A stretch of DNA of 64,000 bases from Candidatus Thalassarchaeum sp. (GTDB lineage Archaea; Thermoplasmatota; Poseidoniia; Poseidoniales; Thalassarchaeaceae), in NCBI GenBank assembly GCA_016777225.1, contig JADHRW010000002.1:127284-191283 (forward strand), given 5' to 3'. Shown here one piece after another: positions 44,439-46,903 of the stretch. The notes beneath the pieces are model-generated. The model was not told the DNA's origin. It was given only the letters and a program-made list of their open reading frames with translations, and did no database searches. How positions within the stretch are numbered: the stretch's first letter is position 1; every line of letters starts with the position of its first letter. Made by a program: the position numbers and the translations under genes.

Positions 44439-45299
44439 TTAATCCCCAATTACTAGAACTCTGGTTCTTAATTGTGCATATCGGGTATTGTAGTGACCAA
44501 GTGCGAAGGATAATATCTCACACAGATGAACTACTGGTATGTTTGTCCTAAGCCCAGTTCTTTGAGATGCTTTCCCTTGGTAAATGTCCAATACAGAATG
44601 AGATAAGTTGCAGGCACTAACGATCATTTGCGCACCCTCAGATTTTGCATCATTTAATACGGATGCAGCTTGTTTTAGGACAGTAGGTTCCTCGGACAGT
44701 AAACTAGGTGCACCTACACTTTGAGTGCGTGAGTCCCAACTCACTGGTTCACCGCCTAAAGTCTGAACTAATTGTTCCATATAATTTGGATCATAAATAT
44801 CATCATCTCCACAAAAACCATATTGCTGTATGTTAGGTCCATAATATGATGCAACTCTAAAATCTATAGGATTAACTACCATAGGCTTAATCTTTTCAAG
44901 GCCAATTTCATCCACAATAACATGCAATAAATGATTAACAGACGTATCTCCTGTAAATTTAAGACCACAGGTTTTCAACAGAACTTCATTAATTTCAGCT
45001 AATAAGATAGGATTTGATTTCAATAAAAACAAGTCTTCTGATAGGTTACCTGCAGTAGATGCACAAGGAGTTAGTATCCCCAACCCTAAAGATTCTGCTT
45101 GAGCAAAAACGCGCGCGTTCAGAGTTAATTGAAGTTTCTGATTGACTTGACGGATTATTCCAGCACCACAACTTGTAGCGCCGTCTAGATATGTTAATTC
45201 AATGCCTAATGACTTGACTAGCGGAACCATTGATTCTGCAACTTCTGGTGAGCCAGAGTGTGCTACATTCCCTGGGTGATAAGCATATTTCATTGCCAC
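44439..45299 (-). CDS. SdhE/HdrB-like protein with degenerate CCG cysteine motifs
   Basis: The 286 residues follow the two-repeat CCG fold of HdrB, SdhE and the C subunit of some succinate dehydrogenases. The start MKYAYHPGN resembles MKYAFFPGC. GATSCGAG, PCASTAGNL, VASYYGPN, TQSVGAPSL and SACNLSH line up with CCG, PCxxCY, VAxHYGCH, CCGxSL and CPxCH. Most cluster cysteines are therefore replaced (Asn11, Ser43, Thr82, Pro155, Ser194, Ser233). Single cysteines remain at 44, 79, 163 and 230. The noncubane [4Fe-4S] clusters probably cannot form. A GTG start shares a base with the TAG of the upstream flavodoxin fusion gene; an ATG follows at 45293. It is translationally coupled to that gene. Function is unknown. 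Confidence 0.7.
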   Translation of the reverse strand: MAMKYAYHPGNVAHSGSPEVAESMVPLVKSLGIELTYLDGATSCGAGIIRQVNQKLQLTLNARVFAQAESLGLGILTPCASTAGNLSEDLFLLKSNPILLAEINEVLLKTCGLKFTGDTSVNHLLHVIVDEIGLEKIKPMVVNPIDFRVASYYGPNIQQYGFCGDDDIYDPNYMEQLVQTLGGEPVSWDSRTQSVGAPSLLSEEPTVLKQAASVLNDAKSEGAQMIVSACNLSHSVLDIYQGKASQRTGLRTNIPVVHLCEILSFALGHYNTRYAQLRTRVLVIGD

Positions 45300-46903
45300 T
45301 AAAATCGACCATCCATCTCATTGTATATTGCTACCACTTCATGATGATTTTTTATTGAAGAATTAAATTGTCTAGGCATTTTTCCAAGTCCCGCAGGAGG
45401 AGCTATTAAAGCCAACATATCATTAATCATATTACCTCCGGTTCTTGTAAAACCAAGCACCATACGAGAAGTAACGCCTGAAAATAAATTACCGAATAAT
45501 CCAATTGGACCCAAGACCTGTCTATACAACACTGAATCATTGACTCGTCCACTACTCTTGATGGTGAATGTATACCACCAAACGTGTTTCCCATGACGTC
45601 CAGTAAATCCATCTCTAGCTAAAGTCGATGTTTTACAATCTAGTAATGCATCATGTATGAATGAACCTTTGCCTTGTCTTCTAATTGATGAAAAATCAGT
45701 TTCTGCTTTGATTCCAGAGGGAGAATCAAGAAGTTGTTCAATTTCTCTCTTTTTCGATGGTGCAGTACGAGGATCATTCCTTCTAGCCCAAGATTGAGAT
45801 ATTATCGAGGGGCCATAATAATCATCAGAATAAGCAGTTGCATCTGATGAAGCATGTAGAATAGGGTAACTATGGATATCCATCATCGAATGCAATTTTG
45901 ACGCAATTAGAGGATTCATTGAACCTAAGGCGCCTTGAGGAGTATTCAAGCCCTGACGTGTGACTGAACTCATCCAAGGCTTACTAGATTCTCGTTTTGA
46001 TTCTAAATCCCAATGCTCCACTGCAAGATCTCTAATTACTTCAAAACCATTCAATGGCTCAATACTAATACTAATACCACCATTTCTAAGGGGAGCAGAA
46101 GATTCTAATCTTAAATTACCTGGAAGAACATGACGTCCGTTAATTGAGATTGCAGTAGTTGGATCATCAACTGCTCCGTCACGGAAAGTTAGACTACCAT
46201 CTTGCGTCGATTTAATTGTCCTTAGAACATCTAATATTGACATATGACCAGGTAAAGCACATACCCAAGTATCTTTTCCCGTTGTGGAAGTACTTGGGTC
46301 ATATCTAAATATGCTTATTTCAGCACTTATTGATTCTGATTTAATCTCAGGAACAGTAAACCCATCTTCTCCAGATGCCCCAGTAGCTCCAGAAGTCATT
46401 GATTCTTTGATAGCCAGAACCATTTCTTCATGAAACACTCCTTCTCCGTCAACTGCTGCCATAGCGGCAAGAGCATTTTCAGCCCATTCTTGAGATATCT
46501 GATCATAGTCTACATCGCAATCAACTCGAGCTACTAATCTTGTAGCACCCAACTGTTCAAATTTATCATCCCATTCTTTACCAGATTCACAAAATAGTTC
46601 ATATGAAGTATCACCCAATGCCAACACAGAGAAATTCACTCCATCTAGAAGACCAGATGGTGCAGAAGATGCCTTTATCCAAAGTTCTTCTGCATTATCG
46701 GGTTGTTCTCCTTCACCCCAAGTAGAACACACAATAAGGACTCTTTTTCGTCCGGAAAGAGATGTTAAATCAAATCCATCCATATCAGCCACTTCAGCTT
46801 CTAGACCATAGCCTGAAGCCTGCTTAGCAAATTTCGCTGCTAATGCCTCGGCATTACCTGACTGAGAACCAAACAATACTAGAAGAGAACGACTGTCAGA
46901 CAT
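45299..46903 (-). CDS. Flavodoxin domain fused to Fe-S-less SdhB-like region
   Basis: Residues 5-150 are a flavodoxin domain of the cytochrome P450/sulfite reductase type, with FMN loops GSQSGNAEA, CSTWGEGEQPDNAEEL and LGDTSYELFCESGKEWDD. After a linker, residues about 192-410 read like succinate dehydrogenase SdhB: EISIFRYDP, SILDVLRTIKS, DGSLTFRDG, IEPLNGFEVIRDLAVEHWDL, SKPWM and DDYYGPSIISQSWARRNDPR. Positions where SdhB has its 2Fe-2S, 4Fe-4S and 3Fe-4S cysteines hold other residues; the whole protein has Cys only at 59, 105, 129, 215 and 423. The last 110 residues contain hydrophobic stretches of unknown role. It probably carries FMN and docks with an SdhA- or SdhE-like partner. Two overlapping hairpins lie in the leader at 46913-46943. 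Confidence 0.75.
   Translation of the reverse strand: MSDSRSLLVLFGSQSGNAEALAAKFAKQASGYGLEAEVADMDGFDLTSLSGRKRVLIVCSTWGEGEQPDNAEELWIKASSAPSGLLDGVNFSVLALGDTSYELFCESGKEWDDKFEQLGATRLVARVDCDVDYDQISQEWAENALAAMAAVDGEGVFHEEMVLAIKESMTSGATGASGEDGFTVPEIKSESISAEISIFRYDPSTSTTGKDTWVCALPGHMSILDVLRTIKSTQDGSLTFRDGAVDDPTTAISINGRHVLPGNLRLESSAPLRNGGISISIEPLNGFEVIRDLAVEHWDLESKRESSKPWMSSVTRQGLNTPQGALGSMNPLIASKLHSMMDIHSYPILHASSDATAYSDDYYGPSIISQSWARRNDPRTAPSKKREIEQLLDSPSGIKAETDFSSIRRQGKGSFIHDALLDCKTSTLARDGFTGRHGKHVWWYTFTIKSSGRVNDSVLYRQVLGPIGLFGNLFSGVTSRMVLGFTRTGGNMINDMLALIAPPAGLGKMPRQFNSSIKNHHEVVAIYNEMDGRF

Follow-up and report, generated by a model that had tools for sequence, protein, structure and literature searches.

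Complex II subunits without cluster ligands as a candidate docking scaffold for exchangeable electron carriers in Poseidoniales

Marine Group II (MGII) archaea are uncultured and count among the most abundant archaea of the surface ocean. The window analyzed here, a 64,000 nt stretch of a Candidatus Thalassarchaeum genome, carries two overlapping genes whose products resemble Fe-S subunits of complex II and heterodisulfide reductase and from which most of the cluster-binding cysteines are missing. What could be the function of such a pair, and is iron-sulfur chemistry replaced by something else? The neighborhood of the locus has already been drawn, with the labels 'succinate dehydrogenase cytochrome b' and 'sulfite reductase flavoprotein' (PMC6741140); a prior description of the cysteine loss or of the carrier swaps reported below was not found in the open-licence literature.

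Gene arrangement and predicted folds

Both genes are on the minus strand. The first (45299..46903 including the stop; coding 46903..45302) encodes a 534 aa fusion of flavodoxin and a cluster-less SdhB, hereafter SdhB*. The second (44439..45299; coding 45299..44442) encodes a 286 aa HdrB/SdhE-like protein with a GTG start, hereafter HdrB* or SdhE*, for which an alternative ATG start exists two codons downstream. Base 45299 is common to the fusion stop and the GTG (TAGTG), a stop/start overlap that agrees with the coexpression proposed in an earlier, sequence-only reading of this DNA. Gene order and overlap are the support for a putative SdhB*/HdrB* heterodimer. Within the window, the pair is flanked by a thermosome gene and a helicase, with ribosomal genes also nearby, and no HdrA or HdrC neighbor of HdrB* was seen; the gene neighborhood at the locus has no SdhA gene adjoining the pair. 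A MAG with a small deletion (L060:3971-6961, also G006) presents both genes as a single 997-aa frame, which was discarded as a Rosetta-stone fusion and is probably an assembly error, since the near-identical L048 has two intact genes. Another contig bearing this Poseidoniales locus, PBAZ01000031 (L062), is filed as a Chloroflexi MAG and is likely mis-binned or mislabelled.

Family profiles place a CysJ-type flavodoxin domain at residues 5-150 of the fusion (46454..46891, minus strand), with matches to PF00258 (residues 9-133, 3e-30) and to the CysJ-type TIGR01931 (residues 6-150, 3.2e-40). The loops GSQSGN, STWGEGE and GDTSYELFCESGK are conserved, including residues invariant among orthologs; this is a flavodoxin domain by sequence, FMN binding is predicted, and it is the remaining redox centre of the window fusion, as previously suggested.

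The N-terminal, [2Fe-2S]-type domain of SdhB* (residues 191-302; 45998..46333, minus strand) is delimited by a Fer2_3/SdhB match (PF13085, residues 196-297, 5.8e-10) and by the SdhB fold, and the C-terminal, dicluster-type domain (residues 303-430; 45614..45997, minus strand) by alignment and predicted fold. TIGR00384 (dhsB) matches residues 199-388 at 1e-13, below its 88-bit cut-off, and the VIRDLVVD linker is kept. AlphaFold, using an alignment with 64 orthologs, modelled the flavodoxin and SdhB regions confidently (most 10-residue blocks of 1-430 at pLDDT 75-94) and left residues 446-534 unresolved. Foldseek searches with this model returned bacterial and mitochondrial complex II B subunits, with a target TM of 0.78-0.83 for SdhB/FrdB. 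The complete SdhB fold, both domains, is recovered in the predicted structure, so the cluster-less region is not an unrelated fold. The strongly conserved C-terminal extension (residues 431-534; 45302..45613, minus strand) is homologous, with one insertion, to the extension of SdhE-type SdhB (LYRQVLGPIGLFGN...HEVVAIYNEMD); it has low confidence when modelled alone and perhaps contacts SdhE*.

HdrB* matches TIGR03288 HdrB (1.9e-36, below the equivalog cut-off), MFR SdhE (2.5e-30) and PF02754 (7e-10). Its family profile is similar to HdrB structures over the full length of the protein (PDB 8rvv_B, 2.7e-54). Profiles, and for SdhB* also the predicted fold, uphold the homology to SdhB and HdrB/SdhE first read from the sequence.

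Stepwise loss of the cluster ligands

Aligned with intact SdhB-SdhE pairs, the window protein has 0/12 cysteines at the SdhB ligand positions: A244, D247, T250 and G262 occupy the former [2Fe-2S] site (residues 244-262; 46118..46174), and I343, Y346, L349 and S353 (residues 343-353; 45845..45877) together with E401, F404, I407 and G411 (residues 401-411; 45671..45703) are the two quartets of the former [3Fe-4S]/[4Fe-4S] region, all on the minus strand. In HdrB*, alignment with intact relatives gives N11, S43, C44, C79 and T82 for former CCG site 1 (CCG1; 45054..45269, minus strand) and P155, S194, V195, C230 and S233 for former CCG site 2 (CCG2; 44601..44837, minus strand), that is, 3/10 CCG cysteines left and 7/10 replaced. 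The loss noted earlier is confirmed in both proteins, with the correction that HdrB* retains three CCG cysteines, two of which (C79 and C230) are invariant across the order. Throughout the order, SdhB ligand cysteines are essentially absent in ~200 sequences and their replacements are conserved, Ser353 and Glu401 being invariant among orthologs; C79 and C230 of HdrB* are cysteine in every scored ortholog.

A decaying or mis-sequenced copy of a normal SdhB/SdhE pair would explain the missing cysteines and nothing more. Close relatives do not have intact cysteines: the same ligand loss is found at ~200 loci, single-cell assemblies included, and the pair is under purifying selection (dN/dS of 0.02-0.06). 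HdrB* is present in 137 of 146 Poseidoniales genomes (33/33 of high quality) and the fusion in 94/99 family genomes. Such dN/dS values and order-wide occurrence indicate neither decay nor sequencing error, and we regard this explanation as refuted.

When 293 genomes of the phylum were searched by profile, HdrB* was found in 0/6 genomes of the sister family in the same class. Beyond the order, the closest matches, with E down to 1e-72, come from another Thermoplasmatota family (f6), in whose operon SdhA, SdhB and SdhE are adjacent and every cysteine is present; homology to these SdhB-SdhE proteins is full-length, C-terminal extension included. The Poseidoniales pair resembles type E complex II (SdhABE, with MFR SdhE and TfrAB) in its adjacent sdhB-sdhE genes, full-length homology and SdhB extension, and differs from it in having neither SdhA nor the SdhB cluster ligands, in having mostly lost the CCG ligands and in the ferredoxin (Fd) or flavodoxin (Fld) carriers added at the N-terminus.

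Conceivably, the pair still works as a variant of complex II: SdhB* would bind canonical SdhA or NadB, and flavodoxin would accept the electrons from succinate/fumarate or aspartate oxidation. The VIRDLVVD linker and SdhB fold agree with this, and NadB and SdhA are both encoded in the genome. However, another locus of the window genome encodes a full set of SdhCAB genes side by side, their cysteines intact, no SdhA stands beside the pair and electrons from SdhA could not cross a cluster-less SdhB*; we consider this variant quite unlikely. The second SdhA-like protein, tried as a partner, is NadB, so that the genome has no spare SdhA. A third Fer2_3 match (C10:277125) was rejected as SdhB since, judged by eye, it adjoins a xanthine/aldehyde-dehydrogenase-like cluster.

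HdrB* matches HdrB over its whole length but both catalytic bridging cysteines are among those lost: in the numbering of the published HdrB (PMC13083937), these are C81 and C234, and HdrB* has T82 and S233 in their place. A possible iron-free electron-transfer complex, in which FMN and the thiols of C79 and C230 would pass electrons via SdhB*/HdrB* and HdrB* would act as a cluster-less thiol/disulfide reductase, draws on the fact that C79 and C230 are invariant, one per CCG half, while eight other ligand positions vary. Nevertheless, these two residues correspond to the non-bridging HdrB ligands C78 and C231, for which reason they were rejected as a catalytic disulfide, and SdhB* offers no cofactor site between FMN and the thiols. 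Such a complex seems improbable to us. EtfD-type CCG proteins, which work under aerobic conditions, set a precedent for changed CCG ligands (PMC13083937), but EtfD retains two clusters, one a linear [3Fe-4S] and the other a noncubane [4Fe-4S], whereas HdrB* has most ligands gone. The window genome also encodes a 929-aa CCG protein beside cytochrome b (L121:4244-7030) and a 669-aa TfrB/LdhH-like, EtfD-like protein (L122:5857-7863), both of which keep CCG and 4Fe-4S family matches.

CCG2 is lost in all orthologs. CCG1 is intact, with 5/5 cysteines, only in genus g5 of family f1 and genera g16, g17, g19 and g21 of family f2, which branch off close to the base of their respective families and are all ferredoxin-bearing. 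Parsimony needs two events for CCG1 loss, and its replacements differ by family (NSCCT vs NSDCS/A); a single clade of CCG1-lost sequences is not rejected by the AU test (p = 0.27). Loss was stepwise, the 12 SdhB ligands and CCG2 going before Poseidoniales radiated and CCG1 later, rather than iron leaving both proteins together as the sequence-only reading had it. Genus g16 holds both a locus with CCG1 lost and two flavodoxins (L221, G154) and one with CCG1 intact and ferredoxin plus flavodoxin (L209, G115), mixed forms that suggest gene exchange or else a taxonomy or binning problem.

Carrier domains and the CysJ-type reductase

Ortholog N-termini are of three kinds: a ferredoxin followed by a flavodoxin, two flavodoxins in a row, or the single flavodoxin seen in the window. 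Wherever this region of an ortholog is intact, a flavodoxin adjoins SdhB*. In most orthologs an N-terminal [4Fe-4S] ferredoxin domain is present and intact, so an iron-free module is not the rule in the order. This ferredoxin has been swapped repeatedly for a second flavodoxin, parsimony on the SdhB*/HdrB* tree giving at least 14 Fd/Fld state changes; the first flavodoxins (Fld1) fall into several separate groups and the genus of the window has all-flavodoxin carriers. The window flavodoxin is a chimera (46850-46903), its first ~45 nt corresponding to copy 1 of relatives and the rest to copy 2, the mark of a deletion between repeats that may be real or an assembly effect. A single-flavodoxin form can be natural, given that species of genus g9 lack Fld1. 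Another, different single-copy flavodoxin product is seen in G032.

The CysJ-type FAD domain (PF00667, FAD_binding_1) is found in 111 of 116 order genomes (30/30 of high quality), in reductases (FNR) of ~430 aa without a flavodoxin and ~620 aa with one. That of the window genome (L123:2748-4676; G000:C8:232 kb) is an orphan CysJ-type diflavin reductase of 643 aa without CysI. The presence of a flavodoxin in the reductase follows the type of the fusion: 0/56 genomes with ferredoxin-type fusions have it, compared to 15/29 with two flavodoxins and 9/10 with a single one. Ferredoxin-bearing and flavodoxin-only fusion genomes thus differ as 0/56 vs 24/39, with a Fisher p of 1e-12 that is inflated by relatedness; phylogenetically independent pairs agree 5:0 (p = 0.06). 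Reductase flavodoxins form two clades, one per family, each nested in the fusion Fld1 of that family in a quick, unrooted tree on which the direction of transfer depends. In genomes with a single PF00258 match, such as the complete G099, the fusion holds the sole flavodoxin. A carrier domain moving between fusion and reductase suggests that both belong to one electron path.

The fusion shares its flavodoxin type with CysJ and diflavin reductases, but its FAD/NADPH domain is in a separate gene and a CysI partner is missing, the NIR_SIR sulfite/nitrite reductase domain being found in 0/116 order genomes, the window genome among them. The literature counts assimilatory sulfite reduction among the core traits of MGII (PMC6336850), a claim whose probable basis is the annotation of the fusion and of the orphan reductase as CysJ-like.

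One may also ask if the pair is a structural or assembly factor without a redox client, its flavodoxin and ferredoxin serving as stability or regulatory domains. There is a precedent in the RNA polymerase subunit AC40, where a cluster-less ferredoxin-like fold is kept as a packing module after ligand loss (PMC13374769), although AC40 belongs to an unrelated complex and has no added carrier domains, and the pair adjoins thermosome and ribosomal genes. Against a purely structural role, which we find unlikely, the carrier has been exchanged at least 14 times, always for a domain of equivalent redox function, and also moves to the NADPH reductase, a pattern that points to electron transfer.

A possible docking platform for electron carriers

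We favor, with modest confidence, a reading in which SdhB*/SdhE*, devoid of clusters, serves ferredoxin and flavodoxin carriers as a docking scaffold, is fed by the CysJ-type reductase and originated from SdhABE. The pair would derive from the SdhB and SdhE genes of an archaeal operon for type E complex II (SdhABE), from which SdhA would have been lost in the Poseidoniales ancestor, respiration being covered by the separate SdhCAB. The subunits so freed kept their fold and lost the electron wire, and redox function shifted to the N-terminal carriers, i.e., the flavodoxin beside SdhB* preceded by a [4Fe-4S] ferredoxin or another flavodoxin. SdhB*/SdhE* may then hold these carriers against a client enzyme, with electrons presumably passing from NADPH to the FAD domain of the reductase, to ferredoxin or Fld1, to the second flavodoxin (Fld2) and to the client; the original partner of the reductase, sulfite reductase, is missing from the searched genomes.

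The earlier idea that FMN substitutes for iron in the SdhB wire fares less well than a scaffold because cluster-less SdhB*/SdhE* has no known electron path. The pair is probably a docking platform for electron carriers, not a wire. As the carriers in the genus of the window are all flavodoxins, its module would require iron only if C79 and C230 bind it. Iron-poor water is a plausible cause of the change.

The broader proposal, put forward tentatively, is that complex II B and E subunits became an order-wide iron-independent electron hub. Its ferredoxin and flavodoxin domains would have been swapped many times and exchanged with the NADPH reductase supplying it, and the pathway it serves would be one so far not known from any organism. 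The series of Fe-S site losses (12 SdhB ligands, CCG2, CCG1, ferredoxin to flavodoxin) on one tree makes iron-sparing evolution directly testable. The pair is core to MGII (Poseidoniales) and, if the scaffold reading is true, a respiratory Fe-S wire would have been turned into a dock for interchangeable carriers.
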